From Streptomyces sp. NBC_01296 (lineage in GTDB: Bacteria > Actinomycetota > Actinomycetes > Streptomycetales > Streptomycetaceae), in NCBI RefSeq assembly GCF_035984415.1, contig NZ_CP130720.1, positions 1,674,001 to 1,738,000 of the forward strand: DNA of 64,000 nt. Reading direction: 5' to 3'. Under the pieces are notes generated by a model. The model did not search any database, was not told the DNA's origin, and saw nothing but the letters and a program-made list of their open reading frames with translations. Every line of letters starts with the position of its first letter. Position 1 is the stretch's first letter. Below are positions 13,866 through 41,702 of the stretch, one piece after another. Position numbers and translations under genes: made by a program.

Positions 13866-13977
13866 GCACACAATGTGATGGCACGTCAGGCACTGCCGGA
13901 AGGGCCGACGGTCACCTCTTTGAACATGGGTCAATGCCGTGCGGGCATGGCTGCCGGCACCTGCCGGCGGTTTTCGG

Positions 13978-14871: not shown

Positions 14872-14970
14872 GACCGGACGGTAACCTCGCCGTGCCGCAC
14901 CCGTAAGGGCCGCAGGGGTGAACAAATACCCACCCCCGGAGCCGAGTTCATGCCCGGTGGGCGACAAGGT

Positions 14971-14985
14971 ATGCCGGTGCGGCAT
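14971..14985. promoter_or_regulatory. Candidate LysR-type operator (T-N11-A palindrome)
   Basis: ATGCCGGTGCGGCAT has perfect 6-nt arms around a 3-nt centre and fits the T-N11-A consensus of LysR regulators. It is 100 nt upstream of the lysR-type start codon. Binding by that regulator is inferred. Confidence 0.4.
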
Positions 14986-15152
14986 GAGCCCCGCCCGGTG
15001 CGGTACGGCCACCGGGACGCCGGGGCCGGCCCCGCCCGGGCGGGATCGGCGCAGGCCACCGGCCCCGGTGGGGCCGCAACGGGACCGGCCGGGGCGCGCT
15101 CCGGGGCGGCCGTCGGCGCCGAAGGGGCGAAACGACGTACTCCGCATGACCG

Positions 15153-15457: not shown

Positions 15458-18400
15458 GTGACCCCCCAGCCCCCGCGATCCGCCGCCACCCGTGACCTGG
15501 TCGTCGCGGTCAGCCCGTTCGAGGAACCGCACCCGCGGATCGTGATCGCCGCCGAACGGGCCGGGGCCCTCGGGCTGCTCGACCTCGGCCGGGATCCCGC
15601 GGCCGCCCGCCGCGGCTTCGCGGAGCTCGCCCGCCGGCTCGGCGGCCGGCGCCGCTACGGGGTGCGGGTGCCCGCCGGATGCCCGCTCGGGCCCGAGGAC
15701 CTGCCGCCCGAGGTGGACACGGTGCTCGTCGCCGACCCCGCGGAGCACACCCCGGAGCAGATGGCCGCCTGGGCCGAGGGCGGGCGGCGGCGCGCCTGGG
15801 CCGAGGTCACCGACCGGGCGGAGGCCCTGATCGCCGTGGCCGCCGGAGCGGTGGCACTCGTCGCCAAGGGGCACGAGGCCGGCGGCCGGGTGGGCGGGGC
15901 CACCACCTTCGTGCTGCTCCAGCAGCTACTGGCCGGGCCCGGACTCGGCGTGCCCGTCCTCGCCCGGGGCGGGATCGGGCCGCACACGGCCGCCGCCGCC
16001 GTCGCGGGCGGAGCCGCCGGCGTGCTGGTCGACGTACAACTGGCCCTGACCGCGGAGGGTGAGGCCGCGCTGCCCGCCGAAGTGGCCGCCGCGCTCCGGG
16101 CGATGGACGGCTCCGAGACCCGGCTGCACGACGGGCACCGGGTGTACGCGCGCCCCGACCTGACCCCGCCCGAGGGCCCGGCCGCCGCGCTGCTCGGGGC
16201 CCGGGACCTGCGGACCCAGCTGCTGCCGGTCGGGCAGGACGGCGCCTCGGCGGCCCGGCTGGCCGCCCGGTACCGGACGACGGGCGGGGTGCTCCAGGCC
16301 GTACGGGCGGCCGTCACCGGGCACCTGGGGGCCGCGGTGCGCACCCGGCCGCTGCTGCGGCCGCTCCCCGTCGCCCAGGGGCCGATGACCCGCGTCAGCG
16401 ACCAGGCCGCCTTCGCCGAGGCGGTGGCCGCCGAGGGCGGGATCCCGTACCTGGCGCTCGCGGTGATGGACGGCGCGGACGTACGCAAACTGCTCGCCGA
16501 GACGGCCGAGCGGCTCGGGGACCGCCCCTGGGGCGTGGGACTTCTCGGCTTCGCCCCGCCCGAGCTGCGCCGGGAGCAGCTGGCGGCCGTGGCCGAGATC
16601 CGGCCGCCGCACGCGATCATCGCCGGCGGCACCCCGGCCCAGGCGGCCCCGCTGGAGGCGGCCGGGACCGCGACGCATCTGCACGTGCCCTCGCCGGGGC
16701 TGCTGGAGCGGTATCTCGCCGAAGGAGCACGGCGGTTCGTGTTCGAGGGGCTGGAATGCGGCGGCCACGTCGGGCCGCGCACCTCGTTCGCGCTGTGGGA
16801 GGAGCAGATCGAGCTGCTCCTGGGATGCCCCGAACCGGCCGCCCTGGACGTGCTGTTCGCGGGCGGCATCCACGACGCGCGCTCCGCCGCGATGGCGGTG
16901 GCGGCCGCCGCGCCACTGGCCGAGCGGGGCGCGCGGATCGGGGTGCTGATGGGGACCGCGTACCTGTTCACGCAGGAGGCGGTGGCCGCGGGCGCGGTAC
17001 TGCCCGGCTTCCAGCGGGCGGCGGTCGAGTGCACGGAGACGGTCCTGCTGCACACGGCCCCCGGGCACGCCACGCGCTGCGCGGCCACTCCGTACGCCGA
17101 GGCCTTCGAGGCGACCCGGCAGCGGCTCGTGGCGGGCGGGAGCGAGGCGCGCGCCGTGTGGGAGGAGCTGGAGCGGCTGAACCTGGGGCGGCTGCGGATC
17201 GCGAGCAAGGGGCTGCGGCGGGGTGCGGCGGCGCCGGCGCCGCTGGAGCGGGTGGGCGAGCAACGGCAGTATGCGGAAGGGCTGTTCATGCTCGGCCAGG
17301 CCGCGACCCTCCGTACCGGGACCACCACGGTCGCCGCCCTGCACGCCCAGGTCACCGAGGGGGCGACCGGGCTGCTGGAGCAGCGCGCCGCCGAGCTGGC
17401 GGCCGCCGGGCAGGACGGGCCGGCCTCCGGGGAGCCCGTGGCCGACCCGCTGGACGTCGCCATCGTCGGCATGGCCTGCGCCTACCCGGGCGCGCCCGAT
17501 CTCGCCGCCTACTGGGCCCGGATCCTGGCCGGGACGGACGCGGTGACCGAGGTGCCGCCCGAGCGCTGGGACCCGGCGCTGTACTACGACGCCGACCCGG
17601 CGCGGGCCGGCGAGCGCACCCCCTCGCGCTGGGGCGGCTTCCTCGACCCGGTGCCGTTCGACGCCCTCGCGCACGGCATCCCGCCGGCCTCCCTCGCCGC
17701 CGTCGAGCCGGTCCAGCTGCTGGCCCTGGAGATCTCGGCGCGGGCCCTCGGGGACGCGGGGTACGGCCGGGACCGGGAGTTCGACCGCTCGCGGACCTCG
17801 GTGGTCTTCGGCGCCGAGGCCGGTACCGAGCTGGCCGGGGCGTACGGGCTGCGCGCGCTGCACCCCGCCTACCTGGGCGAGCTCCCGCCCGGGCTGGACG
17901 AGCAGCTGCCCCGGCTCACCGAGGACTCCTTCCCCGGCATCCTCGCCAATGTGATCGCGGGCCGGGTCGCCAACCGGCTCGATCTCGGCGGCGCCAACTG
18001 CACCGTCGACGCCGCCTGCGCCTCCTCGCTGGCCGCGCTGGACCTGGCCTGCCGACAACTGCGCGACGGGGACAGCGACATGGTGCTGTGCGGCGGCGCG
18101 GACGTGCACAACGGGATCAACGACTACCTGATGTTCTCCTCGGTGCGGGCACTGTCCCCGAGCGGGCGCTGCCGGCCCTTCGACGCGGCGGCCGACGGGA
18201 TCGCGCTCGGCGAGGGCGTGGGCGCCCTGGTCCTCAAGCGGCTCGCGGACGCGGAGCGGGACGGCGACCGGGTCTACGCCGTGGTCAAGGCGGTCGGGGC
18301 GGCCAGCGACGGGCGGTCCCTGGGCCTGACCGCGCCCCGGCCGGAGGGACAGCGCCGGGCCCTGGAGCGGGCCTACGCGCGGGCGGGCATCACCCCCGGC

Positions 18401-21400
18401 GAGGTGGGGCTGATCGAGGCCCACGGCACCGGCACGGTGGTCGGGGACAGCACCGAACTGGGCGTGCTGACCGAGTTGTTCGCCGCAGCCGGGGCGGCGC
18501 CCGGATCCTGCGCGCTGGGCTCGGTGAAATCGCAGCTCGGGCACACCAAGTGCGCGGCCGGGCTGGCCGGGCTGATCAAGGCCGCCCGGGCGGTCCACAC
18601 GGGTGTCCGGCCGCCGACCCTGCACATCGAGACGCCGAACCCGGCCTGGCAGGCGGAGACCAGCCCCTTCGCCTTCCCCACCGAGGCCCGGCCGTGGGCG
18701 GTCCCCGCCGAGCGGCGGATCGCCGGGGTCAGTGCCTTCGGCTTCGGCGGCACCAACTACCACGCGGTGCTGGCCGGTTACGGGGGCGCCGAGGAGGCCC
18801 CGCACGGGCTGGAGGAATGGCCTGCCGAGCTGTTCTGCTTCCGCGGTGAGGACCGGCGGGCGGCGGGGCGGGCGATGGCCCGGCTCGCGGCCCGGCTGGT
18901 GGAGAACGAGGCGGCCGGGCGGCCGTGGGCCCTGCGGGATCTCGCCGCGGAGGCCGCCGCCGAGGGGCAGGGCTCGGGGCCGGTGCGGGTGGCGGTCGTG
19001 GCCGGGGACCTGGACGAGCTCGCGGCCCGGCTGGAGCGGGCCCGGGGGTTCACCGCCGGCGAGGGGGTCCACGTACGGGAGGATGCGGCCGATCCGCGCA
19101 AGGTGGCGTTCCTGTTCCCCGGGCAGGGCAGTCAACGGCCCGGAATGCTCGGCGAGTTGTTCATCGCGTTCCCGGCGCTGCGGGGGCTGCTGGAAACGGC
19201 CCCGCGGGCCGTGGTCTCGGCGGTGTTCCCGCCGGGCGCCTTCAGCGCCGCGGACCGGGCGGCGCAGCGGGCGGCCGTCACCGACACCCGGATCGCCCAG
19301 CCGGCCCTCGGGCTGGCCGGGGCGGCGGCGCATCTGCTGCTCGGGGAGCTCGGCGTACGGCCGGACTGCGTGGCCGGGCACTCGTACGGGGAGCTCACCG
19401 CGCTGTGGGCGGCCGGCGTGTACGACACGGAGAGCCTGCTGCGGCTGAGCGCGCGCCGGGCCGAGGCGATCCTCGCGGCCGCAGGGGCGGATCCGGGATC
19501 CATGGCGGCGGTGACGGCCGCGCCGCAGGAGGTGCGGGAGATCGCGGAGCGGTCCGGGTGCGTGGTCGCGAACCACAACGCGCCGCGGCAGTGCGCGATT
19601 TCGGGCCCGGCGGACTCCGTGGCCGAGGCGGTGGCGGCACTGCGCGCGGCGGGGCTCTCGGCGGAGCCGCTCGAGGTGGCGTGCGCGTTCCACAGCCCGG
19701 TGGTCGCGGGGGCGGCCGCCGCGCTGGCCGAGGAGCTGGCCGGGACGGCGGTTGCCGACGCCGCCGTTCCGGTCTGGTCGAACACCACGGCAGGGCCGTA
19801 CCCGGCCGGCGCCGAGGCCGTACGAAGCCTTGCCGCGCGCCAGGTCGCGGAGCCGGTCCGGTTCGTGGAGCAGGTGGAGGCCATGTACGCGTCCGGTGTC
19901 CGGACGTTCGTGGAAGCGGGGCCCGGGCGGGTCCTCTCCGGCCTGCTGGGCCGGATCCTGCGCGAGCGGCCGCATACGGTGGTGCCGCTGGACGTGCCGG
20001 GCGAGCACGGCCTGTTCCGGCTGGTCACCGCATTGGCGGAGCTGGCTGCGGCGGGCGTGCCGGTGGCCCCCGAGGCCCTGTACCGCGGCCGTGGCACCCG
20101 GCTGCCGGAGCGCGCCCCGCGGCGGCCGGGCTGGCTGGTCGACGGCCACCTGGTCCGCACCGCGGACGGCGCCCCCGTGGCGGGTGGCCTGCAGCCGGCC
20201 CGGCGGGTGGCCCCGGCGGCGGCGCCGTCGGCACCGGCGCCGGCGGACCGCCGCGAGGAGGCGGTCCTCGCGTACCTGCGCGGCTCCCGGGAGCTGGTCG
20301 AGGCCCAACGGGACGTCCTGCTGGGCTTCCTGGGCGCCGGATCGGCCGCGGCTCCGGGCGGGGCCGTGCCCTCCGGGAGCGACTGGCCCGCTGCGATGCC
20401 CGGCCGGGCCGGCACGAACGGCTTCGCGGAGCCGGCCGAGGGCTGGGCGCCGGCGGACGCGCCGCCCGCGCCCGGCACGGTGTGGGCCGGCCGGACGCGC
20501 CCGGGGCTCCGGGCCGACGCGGGCGCAGCGCCGGTACCGGCGACCGGCGACCGGGCCGGCGCGGGCGGGCGGGGCGGCGGGCCCAGCTCCGCCGAGGAGG
20601 TGATGGACGTGGTCCTGGACATCGTGCACACCCGCACCGGATACCCGCGCGACATGCTCGGCCCCGAGTTGGACCTGGAGGCCGACCTGTCCATCGACTC
20701 CATCAAGCGCGTCGAGATCATCGGCGCGCTGGCCGACCGGATCGGGCTCCCGCAGGACCCCGACGGCTCAGCCGAGTCCGCCGTCGAGGAACTCTCCCGT
20801 CTCAAGACCCTGAGCGGCATCGTCGGCTGGGTCACGTCCCACACGAGGGCCCCGGCCGCCGGTACGTCGCCGGCGCCGGCCGCACGGCCTGCCGCAGCCC
20901 GCTGGAGCGACGGCCTCGCGGCGGGCGCAGCCGAGCCGCCAGGGCCCCCTGCCCGTGGCCTCCCGGCAGGCGCACGCGAGTCCGCGGCATCCGCGGCCCG
21001 CGGCCTCACGGGCGGTGTAGCCGACCGGGCCGGCACGAACGGTGGCGGGCACTCGCCGAGGGCATCCGAACCGGCCGGATCCACAAGCGGCGCCCGCTCC
21101 GGCGCTGCCGGGCCCGCCGGGGCGGCGGCCCACGGGCCCGGGGCCGGCTCAGCCGAGCCCGTGGGGTCCGCGGGCACCGGGCGAGCGGTGCGCCGGTTGC
21201 GGGTGGAGGACGTGCCCGTGCCGGCCGTGGCCGTGGAGCCGGAACGGCTGCGGAGGCTGCGGGTCGGGGTGGTCGACGACGGGCAGGGGGTGTCGGCCGC
21301 GCTCGGCACGGCGTTGCGGGAGCACGGCGCCGAGGTGCGGGTCCTCACCGAGGCGGACGCCGGGGGCGCTGCCGGGCTCGACGGGATCGTCGACCTGTCC

Positions 21401-22609
21401 GGGCTGCGGGCCGGCGCCGAGCCGGCGCTGCCCGGCGCGTTCCCCGCACTGCAGCGCGCACTCACCGGCGGGGTCCGCCGGCTCCTGCTCGCCACCACAC
21501 CCGGCGGAGCCCCCGGCGCGGGTCTGCACGGCTTCGCCCGCAGCGCGGCCCTCGAGTTCCCGGGCAGCCTGGTCCGCGCCGTGGAGGTCAGCGCCAAGGA
21601 GGACCCCGAGCGGGTCGCGGCGCAGCTCCTCGCCGAACTGGGCGACGTCCACGGCGAGGGCTCTTCCGTGGGGTACACCGCCGAGGGGGTCCGGATCGCC
21701 CGCCGCCCGGTGCCCGCTCCCCTGCCCGCTGCCGCCGGCGGGGGCGGGGCCCCGCCGCTCGACGCCCGTTGCGTGGTCCTGCTGACCGGCGGGGCCCGCG
21801 GGATCACCGCCCGGACCGCCCTCGCGCTGGCCCGCGCCACCGGATGCCACGTCGAGCTGGTCGGACGTACACCGCGGCCCGCCGCCGAGGCGGACCGCTT
21901 CGCCCGGGCCACCGACCGCGTCGCACTGCGCGCCGCCCTCATCGCCGACGGCCTGCGCAAGCCCGCCGAGATCGAGGCCGCGGCCTCGCGGATCCTCGCC
22001 GAGCGCGAGGTACGGGCCACCCTGTCCGCGATCGGCGCGGTGGCGGCCTCCGTCCGCTACCACCGCGCCGACGTCACCGACGAGCAGGCCGTACGGGCCG
22101 TCGTGGACGACGTACGGGAGCGGCACGGCCGGCTCGACGGCATCGTGCACGGCGCCGGGGTGCTGCGCGACGGGCTGCTGCGGGACAAGCAACCGGACGC
22201 CTTCGCCGAGGTGTTCACCACGAAGGTGACCGGCGCCCGCAACCTCGCGGCCGCGGCCGCCGAGCACGGGTCGGGGCCCGCGCCACGGTTCCTGGCCCTG
22301 TTCGGCAGTGTCTCCGGGGTGTACGGCAACCGCGGCCAGACGGACTACGCCGCCGCCAACGACGCGCTCGATGCCCTCGCGCACGCCTGGTCGGCGTTCC
22401 TCCCGGGCCGGGTGCTGTCCGTCGACTGGGGCCCCTGGGCCGCGGAGGCGGGCGGGATGGTCACGCCGGAGCTGGAGCGCGCGTACGCCCGGCGCGGGGT
22501 CCCGCTGCTCTCCGCCGAGGCCGCCACCGCCGCGTTCCTCGCCGAGCTCGCGTACGGGACCGACGTACAGGTGGTCCTGACGGCCGGGGAGGGCGAGGGC
22601 GATGAGTGA
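15458..22609 (+). CDS. PUFA-type polyketide synthase subunit: NMO-like ER, KS, AT, ACP, KR
   Basis: 2383 residues from a GTG at 15458 with GAGGAG just upstream. Domains: two nitronate-monooxygenase/PfaD-like TIM-barrel segments (~10-600; GGIGPHTAAAA, LECGGHVGPRTS), which in PUFA synthases act as the enoyl reductase; ketosynthase (~664-1090; Cys854 in DAACASS, EAHGTGT, GHTKCAAG); acyltransferase (~1214-1520; GHSYGE with Ser1309; AFHSP suggests malonyl-CoA); one ACP (~1709-1790; Ser1748 in DLSIDSIKR, the PUFA-type signature); and a C-terminal ketoreductase (~2100-2370; TGGARGI, YAAANDA). PfaA normally lacks the reductase domain, so the N-terminal fusion is notable. Ala/Gly/Pro-rich linkers flank the ACP. 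First gene of a seven-gene coupled operon, overlapping the next by 8 nt. Confidence 0.95.
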   Translation: MTPQPPRSAATRDLVVAVSPFEEPHPRIVIAAERAGALGLLDLGRDPAAARRGFAELARRLGGRRRYGVRVPAGCPLGPEDLPPEVDTVLVADPAEHTPEQMAAWAEGGRRRAWAEVTDRAEALIAVAAGAVALVAKGHEAGGRVGGATTFVLLQQLLAGPGLGVPVLARGGIGPHTAAAAVAGGAAGVLVDVQLALTAEGEAALPAEVAAALRAMDGSETRLHDGHRVYARPDLTPPEGPAAALLGARDLRTQLLPVGQDGASAARLAARYRTTGGVLQAVRAAVTGHLGAAVRTRPLLRPLPVAQGPMTRVSDQAAFAEAVAAEGGIPYLALAVMDGADVRKLLAETAERLGDRPWGVGLLGFAPPELRREQLAAVAEIRPPHAIIAGGTPAQAAPLEAAGTATHLHVPSPGLLERYLAEGARRFVFEGLECGGHVGPRTSFALWEEQIELLLGCPEPAALDVLFAGGIHDARSAAMAVAAAAPLAERGARIGVLMGTAYLFTQEAVAAGAVLPGFQRAAVECTETVLLHTAPGHATRCAATPYAEAFEATRQRLVAGGSEARAVWEELERLNLGRLRIASKGLRRGAAAPAPLERVGEQRQYAEGLFMLGQAATLRTGTTTVAALHAQVTEGATGLLEQRAAELAAAGQDGPASGEPVADPLDVAIVGMACAYPGAPDLAAYWARILAGTDAVTEVPPERWDPALYYDADPARAGERTPSRWGGFLDPVPFDALAHGIPPASLAAVEPVQLLALEISARALGDAGYGRDREFDRSRTSVVFGAEAGTELAGAYGLRALHPAYLGELPPGLDEQLPRLTEDSFPGILANVIAGRVANRLDLGGANCTVDAACASSLAALDLACRQLRDGDSDMVLCGGADVHNGINDYLMFSSVRALSPSGRCRPFDAAADGIALGEGVGALVLKRLADAERDGDRVYAVVKAVGAASDGRSLGLTAPRPEGQRRALERAYARAGITPGEVGLIEAHGTGTVVGDSTELGVLTELFAAAGAAPGSCALGSVKSQLGHTKCAAGLAGLIKAARAVHTGVRPPTLHIETPNPAWQAETSPFAFPTEARPWAVPAERRIAGVSAFGFGGTNYHAVLAGYGGAEEAPHGLEEWPAELFCFRGEDRRAAGRAMARLAARLVENEAAGRPWALRDLAAEAAAEGQGSGPVRVAVVAGDLDELAARLERARGFTAGEGVHVREDAADPRKVAFLFPGQGSQRPGMLGELFIAFPALRGLLETAPRAVVSAVFPPGAFSAADRAAQRAAVTDTRIAQPALGLAGAAAHLLLGELGVRPDCVAGHSYGELTALWAAGVYDTESLLRLSARRAEAILAAAGADPGSMAAVTAAPQEVREIAERSGCVVANHNAPRQCAISGPADSVAEAVAALRAAGLSAEPLEVACAFHSPVVAGAAAALAEELAGTAVADAAVPVWSNTTAGPYPAGAEAVRSLAARQVAEPVRFVEQVEAMYASGVRTFVEAGPGRVLSGLLGRILRERPHTVVPLDVPGEHGLFRLVTALAELAAAGVPVAPEALYRGRGTRLPERAPRRPGWLVDGHLVRTADGAPVAGGLQPARRVAPAAAPSAPAPADRREEAVLAYLRGSRELVEAQRDVLLGFLGAGSAAAPGGAVPSGSDWPAAMPGRAGTNGFAEPAEGWAPADAPPAPGTVWAGRTRPGLRADAGAAPVPATGDRAGAGGRGGGPSSAEEVMDVVLDIVHTRTGYPRDMLGPELDLEADLSIDSIKRVEIIGALADRIGLPQDPDGSAESAVEELSRLKTLSGIVGWVTSHTRAPAAGTSPAPAARPAAARWSDGLAAGAAEPPGPPARGLPAGARESAASAARGLTGGVADRAGTNGGGHSPRASEPAGSTSGARSGAAGPAGAAAHGPGAGSAEPVGSAGTGRAVRRLRVEDVPVPAVAVEPERLRRLRVGVVDDGQGVSAALGTALREHGAEVRVLTEADAGGAAGLDGIVDLSGLRAGAEPALPGAFPALQRALTGGVRRLLLATTPGGAPGAGLHGFARSAALEFPGSLVRAVEVSAKEDPERVAAQLLAELGDVHGEGSSVGYTAEGVRIARRPVPAPLPAAAGGGGAPPLDARCVVLLTGGARGITARTALALARATGCHVELVGRTPRPAAEADRFARATDRVALRAALIADGLRKPAEIEAAASRILAEREVRATLSAIGAVAASVRYHRADVTDEQAVRAVVDDVRERHGRLDGIVHGAGVLRDGLLRDKQPDAFAEVFTTKVTGARNLAAAAAEHGSGPAPRFLALFGSVSGVYGNRGQTDYAAANDALDALAHAWSAFLPGRVLSVDWGPWAAEAGGMVTPELERAYARRGVPLLSAEAATAAFLAELAYGTDVQVVLTAGEGEGDE

Positions 22610-25600
22610 GCGCGGGCACGGGGCGGGGCGGGGCCCGCGGCCGACCGACGCGGCGATCGTCGGGATGGGCGCGGTGTTCCCCGGGGCACCGGACCTGGCC
22701 GCGTACCGCCGCAACCTGCTGGCCGGTACCGATGCCATCGGCGAGGTACCGCCCGGGCGCTGGGATCCGGAGGTGTACTACGACCCGGGCAGCGCGACCG
22801 GTCCCGCGGCCGGCGACCGGTTCTACTGCCGGCGGGGCGGTTTCATCGACGGTCCGGCCGTCTTCGACCCGACCCGGTTCGGGATCATGCCGGCCGCGGT
22901 GGAGGGGGCCGAGCCGGACCAGCTGCTGGCCCTGCACGCGACGGCCGAGGCGATCGCGGATGCGGGCGGCGAGAACCGGCTGCCCGCCGACCGCTCGCGG
23001 ATCGGGGTGGTGCTGGGGCGCGGCGGGTTCATGGGCGTGGCCACGGCCCGGCTGGACCAACGGGTGCGTACGGCCCACCAGTTGGCGCAGACCCTGCGCG
23101 AGCTGGCTCCCGAGCTGGGCGAGCGGCGGATCTCCGCGGTGCGCGCCGCCTTCCAGGACGCGCTGGGTCCGGAGCGGCCCGACGCCTCGATCGGGCTGGT
23201 GCCGAGCTTCACCGCCGCCCGGACGGCGAACCGGCTGGACTTCAGCGGCCCCGCCTACACCCTGGACGCGGCCTGCGCCTCCTCGCTGCTGGCGGTGGAC
23301 CAGGCGGTGGGGCTGCTGGCCGGCGGGCGCTGCGACGCAGTGGTCGCGGGGGCCGTGCACCACTGCCACATCGCCACGCTGTGGAGCGTGTTCACCCAGC
23401 TGCGGGCGCTCAGCCCGAGCGAGCGGATCCGGCCGTTCGACCGGCTGGCCGACGGGACGCTGCTCTCCGAGGGGACCGGGGTGGTGCTGCTGAAGCGGCT
23501 GGCGGACGCGGAACGGGACGGCGACCGGATCTACGCGGTGATCCGCGGTACGGGCGTGGCAGGGGACGGCCGGGCCGCGAGCCTGATGAGCCCGCTGGTC
23601 GCCGGCCAGGTACGGGCCCTGGAGCGGGCCTGGCGGGAGGCCGGCCTGGACCCGCGGGCGCCCGGCGCGCTGGGCCTGCTGGAGGCGCACGGTACGGGGA
23701 CCCCGGTCGGCGACGCCGCCGAACTGGACACCCTGGCGCAGGTGTTCGGCCCACCGGAGGCCGCCGAGCCGGGCGGCATCGGCTTCGGCTCGGTGAAGTC
23801 GATGCTCGGGCACACGATGCAGGCCTCCGGCATGGCCGGGCTCATCAAGGCGGCCCTCGCGGTGTACGGGGGGACGCTGCCGCCGACCCTGCACCTGACG
23901 GATCCGCACCCGGACCTGGCCCGGACCCGGATGCGGCCGATCACGCAGGCGGAGCCGTGGGAGCGCGGGCCGCAGCCGCGCCGGGCGGGCGTCAACGCCT
24001 TCGGCTTCGGCGGGATCAACGCCCACGTGGTGCTGGAGGAGGCCCCGGGAGCCGGCCGCCCGGCGCCTGCGGTACGCCGCTTCCTGCCGCTGGGGGCCGC
24101 GGCCGCACCGGTGGCCGGCCCGGGCGGGCGGGACGAGGTGCTCCTGCTCGCGGCGGACGGCCCGGCGGAGCTGGCGGAACTGCTCGCCGCACGGACCGCC
24201 GGACCGGGCGCCGGTCCCGGGCCCGCGGGCGACGGGCCGTGCCGGCTGGCGGTGGTCGGGCCGACCCCGCAGCGGCTCGCGCTGGCCGCGAAGGCCGTGG
24301 CGCGCGGCCGGGCCTGGCGGGGCCGCGGGGACGTCTGGTTCACCCCGGAGCCGCTGGGCGGCCGGGTGGCCTTCCTGTTCCCGGGCCTGGAACCGGAGTT
24401 CGCGCCGGTGGTGGACGACGTCGCGGTCCGGCTCGGCCTCCCCGCACCACGGCTGAGCCGCGGCGGGGAGCTGATGGAACGGGCCCTCGACGCGATCGCC
24501 GCGGGACGGTTCTTCGCCTGTGTCTTGGCGGAACTGGGCATCGGGGCCGATGTGTTGGCGGGTCACAGCCTGGGCGAGTGGGCGGCGATGGTGGCTGCCG
24601 GCATGTATCCGCAGGACGCGGCGGACTCCTTCCTCGATTCGCTGCGGCCGGATTCGCTGAAGGTCCCCGATCTCGTCTACGCGGCGCTCGGGTGCGGGGC
24701 GGCGCGGGCGGAGGCTGCGTTGCACGGCGTGGCGGGGGTGGTGGTCAGCCATGACAACTGCCCGCACCAGTCGGTGGTCTGCGGGGACCCCGCCGGGGTG
24801 GGCCGGGTCCTGGAGCGGCTGCGCTCGGAGGGGGTGCTCGGGCAGGAACTGCCGTTCCGTTCGGGCTTCCACACGCCGATGTGGGAGCCGTACCTCGGGC
24901 AGGTCCGCTCCGCGTTCGACCGGCTGCCGGTGCGGGAGGGGGCGGTGGCGGTGTGGTCGGCGACGACGCTCGCCCCGTTCCCCGCCGACGCGGATGCCGT
25001 CCGGGAGCTGGTGGTGCGGCACCTTCTGGAGCCGGTCCGCTTCAGGGAGCTGACGCTGCGGCTGTACGAGGACGCGGGCGTGCGGAGTTTCGTCGCGCTG
25101 GGCCCGGGCAGCCTGCCCGGCTTCGTCGAGGACACCCTCCGGGACCGCCCCCACCTCTCGGTGGCCACGTCCTCCCCCCGGCTCGCGGGCCTGCCGGCCC
25201 TGCGCCGCACCTGCGCCGCGCTCTGGACCGAGGGCCACGCCCCGAACTGGGCCCGCCTGTCGCCGCACCCCGCTCCCGCCACGCCGCCCGCCCCGGACCA
25301 GGCCCTCCCGGACCAGACCGCCGCGGGCCAGGCCGCCCCGAACCGGGCCGTCGCGCTGGACCTCGGCTCGCCGTTGGTCCGGCTCGGCGAGACGGCACGC
25401 GCCGCGCTGGGCGGTCTGGCTCCCCGGCCGGAGGAAGGCGGTCGGCCGGGGCTGTTGTCCGCGCTGGACACCGTCCTCGCCGACACCCGCGCGGCCGCGC
25501 AGGCCGTCACCGAGGCCTGGTCGACCGTCCGCGGGGCGGCCGGCACCGCAGCTGCCGGTCCGCCGCCGGGCCTCCGCGCCGCCGCCGGTCCCTCGCCGGA

Positions 25601-27200
25601 GCCCCCCACCCCGCGCGGGGAGCCCGGCGCGGGCGCGCGGGGGGCCACGGGCACGTCCCGGCTCCGGGTGTCCCTCGATGCCATGCCCTACGTACGCGAC
25701 CACTGCGTGTACCTGCAGCCCGACGGCTGGCCCGAGGACTCCGACCGGTTCCCCGTCGTGCCCATGACGACCATGCTGGAGTTGGCCGCCGACGCGGCCC
25801 GCCGGCACGCCCCGCCCGGCGCCGCCCTCATCGGCTACGACGACGTACGCGCCCTGCGGTGGCTCCCCGCCGCGCCCGCCGTCGACGTCGAGGTCAGCGC
25901 CCGCAGCGACGGGCCCGGGCGGATCCGGATCGGACTCGGCCCGTACGCCTCCGTCGTCGTCCTGCTCGGCCCGGGCCACGGGCAGCCGCCCCCGCCCGAC
26001 GCCACCCCGCTGCGGGATCCGCGCCCCGCCCCCGTCAGCGCCGAGGCCCTGTACCGGGACCGGTGGATGTTCCACGGCCCCCGCTTCGCCGGCGTCCACG
26101 AGGTCCGGACCGTCGGCGCCGACGGGATCCGCGGAGTCCTGCGGGCGCTGCCCGACCCGGGGGCACTGCTGGACGCCGCCGGGCAGCTGTTCGGGCACTG
26201 GATGCAGCTCGAACTGCCCGTCGACAGGCTGGTGTTCCCGGCCGCCGTCGACCGCATCCGGTTCTTCGGGCCACCGCCCGCCGCCGGCGAGCAGGTCGAC
26301 GCCACCGCCCGTATCCGCGAGGTGCGCGACGTCACCGTGCGCGGCGACCTCGAGCTCAGCCGCACCACCGGCGAGGTGTGGGCCCGGGTCGAGGGCTGGA
26401 CGTACCGCCGCTTCGGCGCCGACGAGCGGGTCTGGCCGATGAAGTTCACCCCCGAGGTGTGCGGCATCGGCGAACCGCAGCCCGCCGGCTGGTGCCTGGC
26501 CCGGCGCCGGTGGACCGACCCCGCGTCGCAGGAACTGGTCATGCGCCGCTACCTCGGCGCCGCCGAGCGGGCGGCGTACGGGCAACTGCCTCCCCGCGCC
26601 AGGGCGCCGTGGCTGCTGGGCCGGATCGCGGCCAAGGACGCGCTGCGGCAGCTGCTGTGGGACGGCGGTGCGGGGCCGGTGTTCCCGGCGGAGGTCCCCG
26701 TCGGGAACGATCCCCACGGGCGGCCCGTGCCCGAGGGGGCACTCGCCTCCGGCTTCCGGCTCTCCCTCGCCCACAAGGACCGGATCGCCGTCGCCGTCGC
26801 GCACCGGTCCCTGGCGGTCGGGATCGACGTCGAGCCGGTCACGGCCGACCCCGACGCGCTGGTCCGCATCGCACTCACCCCGGACGAACTCTCCCTGGCC
26901 GAGACCCTGTCCGCCCGCGAGGGCACCGGCCTGCCGGGCGCGCTCACCGCTCTGTGGTGCGCCAAGGAGGCCGCGGCCAAGGCGGCGGGCACCGGCCTCG
27001 GCGGCCGCCCGCGCGCCTGGCGGGCGGTGTACGACCCCGGCTCCGGCGGGCTGCGGGTGCTCTCCCCCGACGGGCACCCGTACACCCTCCGTACGTCCCT
27101 CCTGCCCGACGGCCACGTCGTCGCCTGGACCGCCCACCCCGCGGCGCCCGACCGCGCCCCCGTCCCCTTCACCCTCACGGAGACCAGCCATGGCCACTGA
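22602..27200 (+). CDS. Polyketide synthase subunit: KS, AT, DH and fused phosphopantetheinyl transferase
   Basis: 1532 residues. Ketosynthase (~15-480) has Cys225 in DAACASS and EAHGTGT, so it is not a chain-length factor, but the third motif reads GHTMQASG: the usual Lys is Met. Acyltransferase (~586-880) has GHSLGE (Ser656) and GFHTP. A double-hotdog dehydratase (~1020-1240) has its His in VRDHC (His1034) with the usual glycine motif stretched by an insertion, and the second-half acid in DAAGQ (Asp1191). The C-terminal ~200 residues are a Sfp-type phosphopantetheinyl transferase (GIDVEPV ~1407, WCAKEAAAKA ~1452), able in principle to activate the ACPs of this system. There is no ACP in this chain. 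The next gene, a free ACP, starts inside its last codons. Confidence 0.95.
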   Translation: MSERGHGAGRGPRPTDAAIVGMGAVFPGAPDLAAYRRNLLAGTDAIGEVPPGRWDPEVYYDPGSATGPAAGDRFYCRRGGFIDGPAVFDPTRFGIMPAAVEGAEPDQLLALHATAEAIADAGGENRLPADRSRIGVVLGRGGFMGVATARLDQRVRTAHQLAQTLRELAPELGERRISAVRAAFQDALGPERPDASIGLVPSFTAARTANRLDFSGPAYTLDAACASSLLAVDQAVGLLAGGRCDAVVAGAVHHCHIATLWSVFTQLRALSPSERIRPFDRLADGTLLSEGTGVVLLKRLADAERDGDRIYAVIRGTGVAGDGRAASLMSPLVAGQVRALERAWREAGLDPRAPGALGLLEAHGTGTPVGDAAELDTLAQVFGPPEAAEPGGIGFGSVKSMLGHTMQASGMAGLIKAALAVYGGTLPPTLHLTDPHPDLARTRMRPITQAEPWERGPQPRRAGVNAFGFGGINAHVVLEEAPGAGRPAPAVRRFLPLGAAAAPVAGPGGRDEVLLLAADGPAELAELLAARTAGPGAGPGPAGDGPCRLAVVGPTPQRLALAAKAVARGRAWRGRGDVWFTPEPLGGRVAFLFPGLEPEFAPVVDDVAVRLGLPAPRLSRGGELMERALDAIAAGRFFACVLAELGIGADVLAGHSLGEWAAMVAAGMYPQDAADSFLDSLRPDSLKVPDLVYAALGCGAARAEAALHGVAGVVVSHDNCPHQSVVCGDPAGVGRVLERLRSEGVLGQELPFRSGFHTPMWEPYLGQVRSAFDRLPVREGAVAVWSATTLAPFPADADAVRELVVRHLLEPVRFRELTLRLYEDAGVRSFVALGPGSLPGFVEDTLRDRPHLSVATSSPRLAGLPALRRTCAALWTEGHAPNWARLSPHPAPATPPAPDQALPDQTAAGQAAPNRAVALDLGSPLVRLGETARAALGGLAPRPEEGGRPGLLSALDTVLADTRAAAQAVTEAWSTVRGAAGTAAAGPPPGLRAAAGPSPEPPTPRGEPGAGARGATGTSRLRVSLDAMPYVRDHCVYLQPDGWPEDSDRFPVVPMTTMLELAADAARRHAPPGAALIGYDDVRALRWLPAAPAVDVEVSARSDGPGRIRIGLGPYASVVVLLGPGHGQPPPPDATPLRDPRPAPVSAEALYRDRWMFHGPRFAGVHEVRTVGADGIRGVLRALPDPGALLDAAGQLFGHWMQLELPVDRLVFPAAVDRIRFFGPPPAAGEQVDATARIREVRDVTVRGDLELSRTTGEVWARVEGWTYRRFGADERVWPMKFTPEVCGIGEPQPAGWCLARRRWTDPASQELVMRRYLGAAERAAYGQLPPRARAPWLLGRIAAKDALRQLLWDGGAGPVFPAEVPVGNDPHGRPVPEGALASGFRLSLAHKDRIAVAVAHRSLAVGIDVEPVTADPDALVRIALTPDELSLAETLSAREGTGLPGALTALWCAKEAAAKAAGTGLGGRPRAWRAVYDPGSGGLRVLSPDGHPYTLRTSLLPDGHVVAWTAHPAAPDRAPVPFTLTETSHGH

Positions 27201-27507
27201 CATCCTCGCCGAGATCACCGGCATGCTCGTGGAGATCGTCGGCGACGAGTTCCTGCTCGCGGAGGAGGTCACGATGAAGACCAGGTTCAACGAGGATCTC
27301 GCCCTGGAGAGCATCGAGTTCGTCGCCCTCGCCGAGCTGCTCCACCATCGCTACGGCGCCGAGGTGGACCTCATGGGCTTCCTCGCCGAGAAGGACATGG
27401 ACGCCATCCTCGCGATGTCCGTCGGTGAACTGGTCACGCACATCGGCCGGGTCACCCACGCCTCCCTCGCCCGGGCGGCGGCCACGCCGACCGCCTCGGC
27501 CGGCTGA
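27190..27507 (+). CDS. Stand-alone acyl carrier protein
   Basis: 105 residues, acidic, with the phosphopantetheine serine in DLALESIEF (Ser41). It presumably carries the chain for the second synthase subunit, which has no ACP of its own, or delivers starter or finished acyl groups. Its ATG lies 11 nt inside the preceding gene and its stop is 7 nt before the hydrolase ATG. The sequence before Ser41 (RFNEDLAL) is a typical helix-II entry; the C-terminal ~20 residues look disordered. Confidence 0.92.
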   Translation: MATDILAEITGMLVEIVGDEFLLAEEVTMKTRFNEDLALESIEFVALAELLHHRYGAEVDLMGFLAEKDMDAILAMSVGELVTHIGRVTHASLARAAATPTASAG

Positions 27508-27514
27508 GCCCGCC

Positions 27515-28390
27515 ATGGCCTTCGTCCGGGCGAACTCGCTCCGCTTCCACGTCCAGCGGCTCCCGGCCGCCGTCCCCGACCGCCGAAACCTGCTCGACGG
27601 GACCGACGGGACCGACGGGACCGACCGCACCGATCGGCCGGTCGTCGTGTTCCTGCACGGACTGGTCGTCGACAACCTCTCCTCCTTCTACTGCCCCCTC
27701 GCCCTGCCCACGGCGCTCGCCGGCCACGAGGCGGTCCTCTACGATCTGCGCGGCCACGGCCGCACCGAACGCCCCGCCACCGGCTACGACAGCCGCACCG
27801 CCGTACGGGACCTCCTCGCGCTGCTCGGTGCCCTGGGACTCGGGCACCGCCGGGTGCACCTGGTCGGCAACAGCCACGGCGGCACCCTCGCCCTGCACGC
27901 CGCGCTCGCCCGGCCGGACCTGGTCGCCGGGCTGACCCTGCTCGAACCCCCGCTCAGCGGGGCCTGGGTGGAGAACATGGTGGACACGCTGTCCGCAGCC
28001 GCCCTGAGCCTGGAGGACAGTCCGGTCCCCGCCGAGCTGCTCGGCCTCCGGCTGCGCAAGGCCGCCCATCTGACGGCGATCGCCGACGAGCTCCTCAACC
28101 GGACCAGCCTGATCGACGACATCGCGGCCAGTCGCACCTTCACGCCCGCCGACTACGCCCGGCTGCGCTCCCCGCTCCTGATCGTGTGCGGGGAGCACTC
28201 CGAACTCGTCGCAGGGGCACGGGAACTGGCCCGGCACGCAACGCAGGCGGGCACCACGCTGCGGATCCTGCCGGGCCTCGGGCACGACGTACTGAAGGAG
28301 AGCAGCGGCTCCCTGCGGAAGGCCGTGCTGGCCCATCTCGAGGCGACGGCCGTGGTGACGGCCGCGCGGGCGGGAGCGCTGGTGCCATGA
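27515..28390 (+). CDS. Alpha/beta hydrolase (possible chain-releasing thioesterase)
   Basis: 291 residues. FLHGL forms the oxyanion strand, the nucleophile is in GNSHGG, and the late His is in GLGHDV, the usual alpha/beta-hydrolase order. Neither synthase subunit has a thioesterase domain, so this protein is the best candidate for releasing the chain; that is inference from context. Residues 28-36 are encoded by three exact 9-nt repeats (Asp-Gly-Thr). Its stop overlaps the glycosyltransferase start (ATGA). Confidence 0.9.
   Translation: MAFVRANSLRFHVQRLPAAVPDRRNLLDGTDGTDGTDRTDRPVVVFLHGLVVDNLSSFYCPLALPTALAGHEAVLYDLRGHGRTERPATGYDSRTAVRDLLALLGALGLGHRRVHLVGNSHGGTLALHAALARPDLVAGLTLLEPPLSGAWVENMVDTLSAAALSLEDSPVPAELLGLRLRKAAHLTAIADELLNRTSLIDDIAASRTFTPADYARLRSPLLIVCGEHSELVAGARELARHATQAGTTLRILPGLGHDVLKESSGSLRKAVLAHLEATAVVTAARAGALVP
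27596..27622 (+). repeat. Three tandem 9-bp repeats inside the hydrolase gene
   Basis: GACGGGACC three times in frame (Asp-Gly-Thr), followed by a diverged fourth copy (27623-27631). Copy-number change would lengthen or shorten a surface loop without a frameshift. Confidence 0.8.
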
Positions 28391-29577
28391 GGGTCCTCTT
28401 CACGGTGCCGCCGCTGGCCGGGCACGTCAATCCGACCGTGGCCCTCGGGGCCGAACTCGCCGCCCGGGGACACCAGGTCGCCTGGACCGGGCCGGCCGGC
28501 GCGCTGGCCCGGCTGCTGCCCGCGCACGCCCGGATCCTGCCGGCCGGCGAGGAGGCGGGCGGCGGTTACGCGGCGCTGCACGACCGCTGGCGCGATCTGC
28601 GCGGGGTGGGGGCGCTGCGCTTCCTGTGGGAGGAGGCGCTGGTGCCGCTGGCCCGGGCGATGGTGCCGGGGGTGACGGATGCGGTCCGCGGCTTCGCACC
28701 GGACCTGATGGTCGCCGATCAACAGGCCCTCGCCGGGCCGGTGGTCGCGCGCCGGCTCGGGATTCCCTGGGCCACCTCCGCGAGCACGTCCGCCGAGCTG
28801 ACCCGGCCGTTCGCGGACTTCCCGAAGGTCGGGGAGTGGGTCGACGGGCAGATCTCCGGGTTCCTCGCCGCGTACGCGGCGGACGGGGCGGCGGGAGCGA
28901 AGGGGGCGGACGGGACGGGCTGGGACCCTCGGTTCTCCGAACGCCTCGTCCTGGTCTTCTCGACCCCCGAACTCATCGGCGCGGTGGATGACTTCCCGCC
29001 GCACCACGCCTTCGTCGGCCCTGCCTTCGGGGCCCGACCCCACCCGCCCGGTTTCCCCTGGCAGCGGCTCGACCCGGAGCGGCGCCGGGTCCTCGTGTCG
29101 CTGGGCACCCTCAACCAGGAGGCCGGCGGCCGGTTCTACGGGGCGGTGCTGGGCGCCGCCGAGCAGCTGGCCGAGGAGGTGCAGCTGGTGCTCGTGGCCC
29201 CCGCGGCCCTGATCGGGGCGGTGCCCGAGAACGTGCTGCTGCTGGAGCGGGTGCCGCAGCTGGAACTGCTGCCCCATTTGGACGCGGTGGTCTGCCACGG
29301 CGGCCACAACACCGTCTGCGAGGCACTGGCGTACGGGCTGCCGCTGGTGGTCGCGCCGATCCGGGACGACCAGCCGATCGTGGCCCGGCAGGTCGTCGGG
29401 GCGGGGGCCGGGGTCCGGGTCCGGTTCGGCAGGACCCGGGCCGAGGAACTGAGGGACGCGCTCACGGCCGTGCTGGACGATCCCGGCCCCCGCCGGGCCG
29501 CCCGGCGGATCCAGGCCTCCTTCGCCGCGGCGGGCGGAGCCTGCGCCGCGGCCGACCGGTTGGAGAAACTCCTGTGA
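28387..29577 (+). CDS. Family 1 (UGT-like) glycosyltransferase
   Basis: 396 residues with the GT-B fold of macrolide and flavonoid glycosyltransferases: an N-terminal FTVPPLAGHVNPTVAL acceptor-domain motif and a C-terminal donor-binding stretch LVSLGT ... VCHGGHNTVCEAL. It should transfer a sugar from a nucleotide donor to a hydroxyl of the polyketide or lipid. No deoxysugar biosynthesis genes lie nearby, so the donor probably comes from primary metabolism. It overlaps both neighbours by 4 nt. Confidence 0.93.
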   Translation: MRVLFTVPPLAGHVNPTVALGAELAARGHQVAWTGPAGALARLLPAHARILPAGEEAGGGYAALHDRWRDLRGVGALRFLWEEALVPLARAMVPGVTDAVRGFAPDLMVADQQALAGPVVARRLGIPWATSASTSAELTRPFADFPKVGEWVDGQISGFLAAYAADGAAGAKGADGTGWDPRFSERLVLVFSTPELIGAVDDFPPHHAFVGPAFGARPHPPGFPWQRLDPERRRVLVSLGTLNQEAGGRFYGAVLGAAEQLAEEVQLVLVAPAALIGAVPENVLLLERVPQLELLPHLDAVVCHGGHNTVCEALAYGLPLVVAPIRDDQPIVARQVVGAGAGVRVRFGRTRAEELRDALTAVLDDPGPRRAARRIQASFAAAGGACAAADRLEKLL

Positions 29578-31490
29578 CACCCCTGACACCCCTGACAGCC
29601 CCGATGCCGACGGCGCGGCTCGCCCTCCGCGAGGTGCCGTGGACCTCTGCCGTGCTGCTGGCCGCGCTCGGTGCGGGCACCGTACGCGCCCGGCGGCGGC
29701 TGCGGGCCCTGCCCGTGCTGCCCGCGCCCCCGATCGCCCCGGCCGCATCGGCCGGTCTGCCGCGCGCCGCCGGGTGGCGGCTGCTGACCGCGCAGGGCGT
29801 GGAACCCGACGCGGCGACGTTCCTGACCGCCTGTGCGTACGCCGACCGGGAGGGCCTGCGGGTGCTGGACCTGATCCCGGCCGACCTCGCCGCCGAGCGT
29901 GCTCTGGGGCTGCTCCGCCTGGTCGACCCGGCCGGCTACCGGCAGGACCGGCTCGGCGAGGGGCGCGGGGCCGGGTATGCCGTGCTCGTGGCCGAGGAGG
30001 TGCTCGCGCGGGCCGGGGTGGATCCCGACACGCCCCGGCGCGACCCGGCCGAACTCCTGGCGCTCGTCCGCCGCTTGAAGGAGTTCGCGGCCGACGCCAC
30101 CGGTCTGGCCGTCGCCCCGGCGCTGAGCTCCGGGCGGCCCGGGCGCTGCGGCCCCGGCACCACCGGGCCGGGCCGGGTCGCCGCGTTGCAGGCCCAGGGT
30201 CTGCCGCCGGGTGGGCTGGCCGCCGCACAGCTCGCCGGGCTGGCGGTGCTGGCGGGTGCGGTACTGCGCCAGGGCCGGTGGGGCGCGGCGGCGGCCGGGC
30301 TGTACTGGCTCCAGCCGTACCTCGCCCTCGGCGGGCGCGGCGGCCCGCTGCACCCCGCCGACCTGGCCGCCGCGACCGCCCTGCGGCCGGTGCGCTCCCT
30401 CGGCGCCGGCCTGCGTACGGCCGCTGCGGCCGCCCGTACGGCCCGCGGCGCGGCGGACACCGCGCGGGCGGCCTCGTACCGGGCCGAACTGGCCGGCGGA
30501 ACCGACCGGTTCTTCGAGCCGCGCCGCCCGGACTGCCCATGGTGCGGGTCGCGGCGGCTCACCGTCCGGGTCCGGGTACCCGATCTGCTCCAGGGCAAGC
30601 CCGGCCGGTTCACCCTGGAGCAGTGCGGGGACTGCGGGCACGTCTTCCAGAACCCCCGGCTGACGCTGGAGGGGCTGGAGTTCTACTACCGCGATTTCTA
30701 CGACGGCCGCGGCGGGGAGGGCGCCGGGACGGTCTTCGGCCGGCTCGGCGCGTCGTACCGGGCGCGGGCGCAGATGCTCCGCCCGTACGGGGCTCCGGCT
30801 TCCTGGCTGGACGTCGGCACCGGGCACGGCCACTTCTGCAATGCCGCGCGGGCCGTCTGGCCCGGTACCCGCTTCGACGGGCTGGACATGGGCGAGGGGG
30901 TGCTCGAGGCCGAGCGGCGCGGGTGGGTGGCCACCGGATTCCAGGGCCAGTTCCCGGAGTTCGCGGCGAAGCTGGCCGGCCGGTACGAGGTGGTCAGCAT
31001 GTACCACTACCTGGAGCACACCCGGGACCCGCTCGCCGAACTGGACACGGCGGCCGAGGTGCTGGCCCCCGGCGGGCACCTGGCCATCGAACTCCCCGAT
31101 CCGGAGTCGCGGATGGCCCGGCTGCTGGGACCGGCCTGGCTGCCCTGGTTCCAGCCGCAGCACCAGCACCTGATCCCGGCCGCGAACCTGCGGGAGGCGT
31201 TGGCCGATCGGGGGTTCAGCGTCCTGGCCGAGGAGCACGGCGCGGCCCACCAGGGCAACGACTTCTTCGGCGCGGTGGCGCTGACCGCGACGCGGCTGGC
31301 CCCGGATCCGGACCGCCCGTGGGGTCCCCCGGCCACGCCGCGCAGTCGGGTCCTGGCCGGGGCCGTACGGGTGGCGGCGCTGCCGTGCCTCGCCGGCGCG
31401 GCGGTGCTCGACGCGGTGCGCACGGCCGCGGCCCGGCGCACGGACGGCGGGAACGCCTACCGGATGCTGGCCCGCAAGGAGGGAGCGTGA
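29574..31490 (+). CDS. Class I SAM-dependent methyltransferase with zinc-ribbon and extra N-terminal domain
   Basis: 638 residues from a GTG overlapping the previous stop (GTGA). The first ~310 residues are Ala/Arg-rich with a hydrophobic start and match nothing I recognise. A zinc-ribbon (CPWC ... CGDC, residues ~321-352) then precedes a methyltransferase with motif I DVGTGHGHF (~413) and YHYLEHTRDP, the layout of sugar C-methyltransferase-like enzymes. The substrate may be the sugar or the aglycone. The extra N-terminal half doubles the usual length and makes this a fusion of interest. Confidence 0.88.
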   Translation: MTPLTPLTAPMPTARLALREVPWTSAVLLAALGAGTVRARRRLRALPVLPAPPIAPAASAGLPRAAGWRLLTAQGVEPDAATFLTACAYADREGLRVLDLIPADLAAERALGLLRLVDPAGYRQDRLGEGRGAGYAVLVAEEVLARAGVDPDTPRRDPAELLALVRRLKEFAADATGLAVAPALSSGRPGRCGPGTTGPGRVAALQAQGLPPGGLAAAQLAGLAVLAGAVLRQGRWGAAAAGLYWLQPYLALGGRGGPLHPADLAAATALRPVRSLGAGLRTAAAAARTARGAADTARAASYRAELAGGTDRFFEPRRPDCPWCGSRRLTVRVRVPDLLQGKPGRFTLEQCGDCGHVFQNPRLTLEGLEFYYRDFYDGRGGEGAGTVFGRLGASYRARAQMLRPYGAPASWLDVGTGHGHFCNAARAVWPGTRFDGLDMGEGVLEAERRGWVATGFQGQFPEFAAKLAGRYEVVSMYHYLEHTRDPLAELDTAAEVLAPGGHLAIELPDPESRMARLLGPAWLPWFQPQHQHLIPAANLREALADRGFSVLAEEHGAAHQGNDFFGAVALTATRLAPDPDRPWGPPATPRSRVLAGAVRVAALPCLAGAAVLDAVRTAAARRTDGGNAYRMLARKEGA

Positions 31491-32437
31491 CCGCGGCTGC
31501 CGCCCGCGCCGGCGGGCCGGGCGCCCCCGCCGGGCAGGACATCGCCCGGCGGGCCACCGCCGACCCGCTGTTCCGGCTCGTCGCCTATGCACTGGAGGCC
31601 GCTCACGGCCGGCCCCCGGCGGCCGTCTGGAGCGCCCCGTACGCCTTCCACCTGCGATCGCCGGGGCTGGTGGCGGCGGCCGGCTGGCCGGTGGCGGCCG
31701 CCGCGGCGCCGCGCGGCGACGGCCTGGTGCGGCTCAGCTCCCTGGGGCACCCCGCCGACGGCTGCGACGTTCCGCTGGTGCTGTCCGGGCCGGCGCCCGC
31801 GATGCCCGCCTGGGCGGCCCGGCCGTACACGGTTCTGCGGGCCCTGGCCCGCGCCGGGTACGGCCGCGGCGGGAGCGATCTGCACGTGCAGGGCTCGCTC
31901 ACGGCCGCCGCCGGGCTGGCCACCGCGGAGCCGGCCGACTGCGCGGTGGCGCTCGCGGTGGCCGACGCCCACACGCCGCCGGGCACGGACCCGGACCGTG
32001 CCGAGCTGGCCCGGCTGCTGGCCGGGGCGCTGCCGGACGGTGACCGGGCGCTGCGCCGGGCGGTGCTCTTCGCCCGGCCGGGCGAGGCCCTGCGGGCGGA
32101 CCGGGATCCGGCGCGGCCGCACCGGTACGTCGCCTTCGACCCGGCGGCTTCGGGGGCGCGGCTGGTACTGCTGGCCGTACGCACGGATCCGCACCACCCG
32201 GACCTGCGGGCGGCGCTCGCGCGGGCGGTGGCGTGCGCGAGCCGGGCGGGGGCGCTGAGCGCCTGGCCGCCGGGGCCGCCCGGGGCGCGGCCGGGGCGGA
32301 GCGTCCTGGTGCTGCTGCCCGAAGAGCGGCTGGCGGCGGTGCGGGCCGCGGTCGCGGAGGACTTCCGCGGCCGGGGGCGGCCGGTACCCCGCTTCCTGAA
32401 CATCGCCGTGGCCGGTGCGGCCCGGCGGGAGGAATGA
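31487..32437 (+). CDS. Galactokinase/GHMP-kinase-like protein
   Basis: 316 residues from a GTG with AAGGAGGGA directly upstream. The central stretch (SDLHVQGSLTAAAGLATA, then CAVALAVADA) and the C-terminal FLNIAVA resemble galactokinase-type GHMP kinases, but the glycine-rich loop (normally like GAGLSSSA) reads QGSLTAAAG, so ATP binding may be altered or lost. A sugar-1-kinase feeding the neighbouring glycosyltransferase would make sense. It is the last gene of the coupled operon. I am sure of the gene, less so of the family. Confidence 0.7.
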   Translation: MTAAAARAGGPGAPAGQDIARRATADPLFRLVAYALEAAHGRPPAAVWSAPYAFHLRSPGLVAAAGWPVAAAAAPRGDGLVRLSSLGHPADGCDVPLVLSGPAPAMPAWAARPYTVLRALARAGYGRGGSDLHVQGSLTAAAGLATAEPADCAVALAVADAHTPPGTDPDRAELARLLAGALPDGDRALRRAVLFARPGEALRADRDPARPHRYVAFDPAASGARLVLLAVRTDPHHPDLRAALARAVACASRAGALSAWPPGPPGARPGRSVLVLLPEERLAAVRAAVAEDFRGRGRPVPRFLNIAVAGAARREE

Positions 32438-40692: not shown

Positions 40693-40787
40693 CATCACCC
40701 AAGTGAACGAGGACTTTTATCGATCACTTATGGGCAGAGTGGGGCGGCCGATTGACACCCCCACGCGACCGCAGGACCGGAGAACCG

Positions 40788-41699: not shown

Positions 41700-41702
41700 C
41701 CT

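Follow-up and report, generated by a model that had tools for sequence, protein, structure and literature searches.

What does the large synthase operon of Streptomyces sp. NBC_01296 make, and to which family of iterative synthases does it belong? The window, the whole 64,000-nucleotide stretch of DNA analysed here, covers positions 1,674,001-1,738,000 of the 9.38 Mb genome, and its nearest relatives at the locus are Streptomyces (88% to S. katrae). Positions 15458-32437 hold seven tightly packed plus-strand genes, with an overlap of a few bases at most junctions. The two large subunits, PKS1 and PKS2, overlap by 8 bp, and the frame of the free acyl carrier protein (ACP) overlaps PKS2. GC3 reaches 0.91-0.95 in the frames of the PKSs, the hydrolase, the methyltransferase and the kinase-like protein, which supports their being coding, and conservation of catalytic residues in up to 81 sequences argues that the operon is not a chance pattern. 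The features of the locus are:

13978-15147, minus strand: LysR-family regulator (Pfam LysR_substrate and HTH_1), divergent from the operon, with the HTH starting at about residue 97 of the longest ORF
15458-22609, plus strand: PKS1, FabK-type ER1 (His lost)-FabK-type ER2 (His437)-KS-AT-ACP-KR (Pfam KS, AT, PP-binding and KR)
15494-17377, plus strand: the two TIM barrels of PKS1 (628 aa), first pseudo-ER1, then catalytic ER2 (AlphaFold2 model)
22602-27200, plus strand: PKS2, KS2 (C-H-H intact)-AT2-DH-PPTase, without CLF (Pfam KS, AT and PS-DH; C-terminal PPTase)
27190-27507, plus strand: free acyl carrier protein, motif DLALESIEF (weak match to PF00550)
27515-28390, plus strand: alpha/beta hydrolase with nucleophile motif GNSHGG, a probable thioesterase or editing/release enzyme
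28387-29577, plus strand: GT1-type (MGT family) glycosyltransferase (TIGR01426, E=4e-53)
29574-31490, plus strand: SAM methyltransferase (PF13489, E=6e-28) carrying Zn-ribbon-like CxxC motifs and about 300 additional aa in its N-terminal region
31487-32437, plus strand: protein resembling a degenerate galactokinase (GHMP), probably without sugar kinase function (family profile and predicted fold)
32465-33727, plus strand: secreted phosphoesterase carrying a He_PIG domain, of doubtful operon membership and conserved in the nearest Streptomyces loci alone

The original prediction had spread KR, DH and nitronate-monooxygenase-like ER activities over two large subunits and a free ACP, coupled to glycosyltransferase, methyltransferase and galactokinase-like genes. 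All of these were recovered at the positions given, by Pfam and profile matches, but the prediction had overlooked the PPTase, the presence of a KS and an AT on both subunits, the hydrolase, the LysR gene and the two-barrel nature of the reductase. The LysR gene is kept at the equivalent position in most related Streptomyces loci. A He_PIG Ig-like domain ends both proteins that flank the operon (12609-13934, minus strand; 32465-33727, plus strand), and both proteins are kept in near Streptomyces relatives. Elsewhere in the window, a methyltransferase directly followed by a terpene synthase (40752-42821, plus strand) forms the gene pair expected for 2-methylisoborneol, with 42824-44221 (minus strand) alongside and a weak cytochrome P450 match beside it. 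A second terpene synthase (PF19086, E=5e-31) is located at 60939-62213 on the minus strand.

Among the smaller proteins of the operon, the Ser of the free ACP is invariant in 72 sequences and the Ser, Asp and His of the hydrolase are kept in 72/72. The methyltransferase occurs at full length in Frankia and as its C-terminal half alone in NBC_01243. The galactokinase-like protein has no Pfam match. Its family profile finds the galactokinase 6tep (E=2.9e-15) and the predicted fold agrees, with a model of low confidence at the N-terminus. Aligned to the galactokinase, however, it shows a gap in place of GEHTDYN and has GLATAEP instead of GLSSSAA. It is weak evidence of sugar supply, and is not read as such here because it lacks the sugar-binding loop GEHTDYN as well as a Ser-rich phosphate loop.

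The tandem enoyl reductase of PKS1

As had been foreseen, PKS1 carries its reductase at the N-terminus and a single internal ACP (motif DLSIDSIKR, Pfam PP-binding), a layout housed in a PfaA-related iterative synthase. The N-terminal region matches nitronate monooxygenase/FabK in profile searches, and its 628 residues fold into two TIM barrels in the AlphaFold2 model (mean pLDDT 92). The first barrel (residues 13-240) matches FabK 5gvj by profile. NCBIfam places FabK in both reductase halves, with no other family found in the window sequence at E<=1. The fold of ER2 compares with FabK structures at Z 35.8 and ca. 24-25% identity, against Z 27-31.3 and 13-14% identity for PfaD. The N-terminal reductase is FabK-type rather than PfaD-type; an origin from PfaD is disfavoured by profile, identity and fold ranking. 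The fusion itself had been put forward as a distinction from known relatives, a claim that finds no support, with fused pfaDA and PPTase-bearing pfaBC described in Flavobacteriales and Renibacterium (PMC13291983), the class already catalogued as Type M (PMC3098273), and a double barrel in the Type P protein of Beijerinckia.

The proposed catalytic His of TIM-barrel enoyl reductases sits in the motif xEAGGH (PMC13311796). Residue counts were taken on alignments of 81 PKS1 and 71 PKS2 sequences. The catalytic His is kept in ER2 of all 81 aligned PKS1 sequences and replaced in ER1 of 80. A first barrel without His in every sequence was considered and rejected on account of one exception, L068:10001-11806, the only sequence among the 81 that retains it. 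Enzymes of this kind must dimerise; the gammaproteobacterial PfaD contains one such ER domain, and the two thraustochytrid ERs form a heterodimer (PMC13311796). Because dimerisation is required, and the His is lost from ER1 and kept in ER2, ER1 probably serves ER2 as a structural partner within the same protein and stands in for the dimer required of TIM-barrel reductases.

The other active sites are similarly preserved. KS1 keeps its Cys/His/His in 81/81 PKS1 sequences, KS2 in all 69 PKS2 sequences with an aligned KS2, and the DH its His and Asp in 71/71. The Ser residues of AT1 and AT2 are present wherever the alignment covers the region, as is the ACP Ser in all covered sequences. The catalytic motifs of KR, DH and ER2 are complete, so a full reductive cycle would be available.

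Family membership of the synthase

In the KS tree, all KS1 sequences lie on one side of a branch (support 100/98) and adjoin the Type P (Ars) KS of Beijerinckia and Methylosinus (support 93/91), with PfaA-type KS outside. KS2 forms a second group, distant from the PfaC-type KS; the PfaC rows and RhodobactSC52 have long branches that make the placement of those rows unsure. Streptomyces and Bacteroidota rows populate the KS1 clade, and Frankia, Streptomyces and Bacteroidota rows the KS2 clade; the Frankia KS1 is 68% identical to that of the window. A PfaB-PfaC fusion as the source of PKS2 is disfavoured by this tree, where KS2 occupies a clade of its own far from PfaC KS. The DH-PPTase protein of the Beijerinckia Type P cluster matches the PKS2 tail (27% over 544 aa), and PKS2 looks like a KS-AT module joined to a DH-PPTase resembling the Ars partner protein.

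The Ars-type cluster of Beijerinckia comes nearest among loci of a known product type, with 44% identity over 1641 aa. Type P clusters make the alkyl chains of phenolic lipids (PMC3098273), which in Ars systems are C22-C26 in length. ArsA is a synthase of C23-C25 fatty acids, and the LysR protein ArpR is the activator in Azotobacter (PMC4824345); the window operon likewise has a LysR gene, in divergent orientation. The Ars-type clusters of Azotobacter and Beijerinckia share with the window the N-terminal double FabK-type ER, KS, AT, ACP and KR, and the ArsA-like ER-ER-KS-AT-ACP-KR order together with a DH-PPTase is found in the window operon. They differ in that the DH-PPTase is a separate protein rather than the tail of PKS2, and in lacking KS2-AT2 and the cassette of free ACP, hydrolase and GT1. 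Furthermore, their chain is received by type III PKSs, whereas the scan of the operon genes and their immediate neighbours found none.

Two further cluster types were described without a known product: Type M, in Frankia, Actinosynnema, Renibacterium and Streptomyces avermitilis, and Type N, in Chitinophaga and Chryseobacterium (Shulse and Allen, 2011, PMC3098273). On KS phylogeny and domain order, the operon can be assigned to this Type M/N class, being placed through the Frankia and Bacteroidota loci and linked to the S. avermitilis, Renibacterium and Actinosynnema clusters by description only. Its KSs group with those of Frankia and of Chitinophaga and Chryseobacterium, and a fused ER-PfaA subunit followed by a second subunit with AT, DH and PPTase is common to the window and the Frankia, Pseudonocardiales and Micromonospora loci. 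The Type M locus of Frankia (L071) reads ER1-ER2-KS1-AT1-ACP-KR and KS2-AT2-DH-PPTase, then ACP, hydrolase, glycosyltransferase and methyltransferase, as in the window; it has, on the other hand, two ACP domains, and the galactokinase-like and LysR genes are extra in the window. Type N clusters share a five-gene core of identical order, with 35-40% identity in the PKSs and the glycosyltransferase, but in them the glycosyltransferase is duplicated or fused, and two PapA-like acyltransferases come next, together with a small membrane protein.

Distribution and tailoring genes

A scan of species-representative genomes collected 80 related loci from Streptomyces, other actinomycetes and Bacteroidota. 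The tandem-ER gene is present in 55/199 Streptomyces genomes and in 10 of the 396 genomes of a phylum-wide sample. When the window genes were searched against the 80 loci, the order PKS1-PKS2-ACP-hydrolase-glycosyltransferase proved common to Actinomycetota (Streptomyces, Frankia) and Bacteroidota, the latter including Chitinophaga, Chryseobacterium, Pedobacter, Sphingobacterium and Dyadobacter, among others. A version with a PKS2 53% identical to that of the window is encoded on two Streptomyces plasmids, one of them described as mobilizable. Another Streptomyces plasmid (L094:445-19224) combines the gene of a PfaA-like synthase bearing four ACPs with genes for salicylate and dihydroxybenzoate, possibly a cluster for a metallophore that bears a lipid.

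Downstream of the core, Streptomyces loci continue with the methyltransferase, also present in Frankia, Skermania and Actinomadura loci, and the galactokinase-like gene. Bacteroidota carry a second or fused glycosyltransferase, two PapA-type condensation-domain acyltransferases and a small membrane protein. The first copy of the PapA-like pair (L035:24758-27291 and equivalent places elsewhere) has HHxxxDG and the second nearly always PHxxxDG; inactivity of the second was considered and set aside, as PHxxxDG retains the catalytic His and both copies may work. In four Micromonosporaceae loci (L033, L077, L083, L086) a sulfotransferase directly follows the hydrolase, in the usual place of the glycosyltransferase. 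These Bacteroidota and Micromonosporaceae genes beside the core look like head-group chemistry. The five-gene core syntenic in two phyla, the double FabK-type ER, the affinity to Ars and a KS2 not derived from PfaC are additions to what had been predicted from the window.

Product of the pathway

The reading we favour, with moderate confidence, is that of an Ars-like iterative type I fatty acid/polyketide synthase whose long, mostly reduced acyl chain receives a sugar and probably an O-methyl group, yielding a glycolipid. The PPTase domain seen in PKS2 would activate the ACPs, and AT1 would load extender units, presumably malonyl. Conserved active sites and homology to Ars suggest that chain growth with full reduction would be carried out by the intact KS1 together with KR, DH and ER2, with KS2-AT2 either priming the chain or performing the last condensation. 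The chain may then be handed to the free ACP and released or edited by the hydrolase, after which the glycosyltransferase could attach a sugar at a hydroxyl left by the KR and the methyltransferase could cap the product, LysR putatively regulating the operon.

Several points count against a glycolipid. Neither Type M nor Type N includes a cluster of known product, none having been characterised in the literature searched, which covered few subscription journals. The ER could work in some cycles only, leaving an unsaturated chain, and KS1 also resembles PfaA (TIGR02813). Macrolides, moreover, are frequent substrates of MGT-family glycosyltransferases. A secreted glycosylated antibiotic or surfactant (macrolide-like, or a macrodiolide glycolipid), in which the genes for secreted proteins on either side would take part, would fit this enzyme family, the patchy distribution, a hydrolase that could cyclise the chain and the version on a mobilizable plasmid of another Streptomyces. 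It is rather unlikely: the operon contains neither a dedicated exporter nor a resistance gene, and its core is conserved across two phyla. Fattiviracin- or glucolypsin-type glycolipids were also considered as the product, and no link to a gene cluster was found in the literature search.

A PUFA-like synthase proper, in which DH isomerisation and skipped ER steps would yield a polyunsaturated or polyene chain that is then glycosylated, must be called unlikely. The ACP has the PUFA-like motif IDSIKR and PKS1 reaches 892 bits against the PfaA model TIGR02813, but the cut-off of that model is 1010. PUFA synthases (PfaABCDE, Types A and B) contain a homologous KS-AT-ACP-KR subunit, yet differ in a separate PfaD-type ER, 4-6 ACPs, and a KS-CLF and two DHs in PfaC (PMC3098273). 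PKS1 bears one ACP where the PUFA type calls for at least four in tandem, its ER is fused and FabK-type, and the Pfam domain scan of PKS2 found one PS-DH and no CLF, its KS2 standing apart from PfaC KS. An envelope lipid of the heterocyst-glycolipid (hgl) type, deposited in aerial hyphae or spores, would draw on the related KS lineage (PMC3098273), the glycosyltransferase and the matching cassette in the nitrogen fixer Frankia. It appears quite unlikely: hgl clusters (Type F) have no DH and their HglC is a KS-CLF-AT protein (PMC3098273), unlike the window operon with its DH and no CLF; presence in about a quarter of Streptomyces genomes argues against a general developmental lipid; and a TTA codon occurs in no gene. 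The cluster agrees with neither PUFA nor Type F systems and lies nearer the Ars type. Of the product originally proposed, a glycosylated lipid chain stays plausible, but the chain is more likely to be reduced than a polyene.

Returning to the glycolipid, it is conceivable, at a little under an even chance, that one such pathway with a fixed five-gene core has been inherited in Actinomycetota and Bacteroidota. It would combine an Ars-type synthase, a second active KS-AT module and a fused dead/active FabK pair, while the head group would vary from clade to clade: a methylated sugar, an acylated disaccharide or a sulfate. The cassette, for which the literature searched holds no product, is found in about a quarter of sampled Streptomyces genomes, in Frankia and in many soil Bacteroidota. 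Its fused reductase pair provides a clean test case for TIM-barrel enoyl reductases inside large synthases, and the link to Ars-type systems points to a long reduced chain as the kind of product that chemists should seek.
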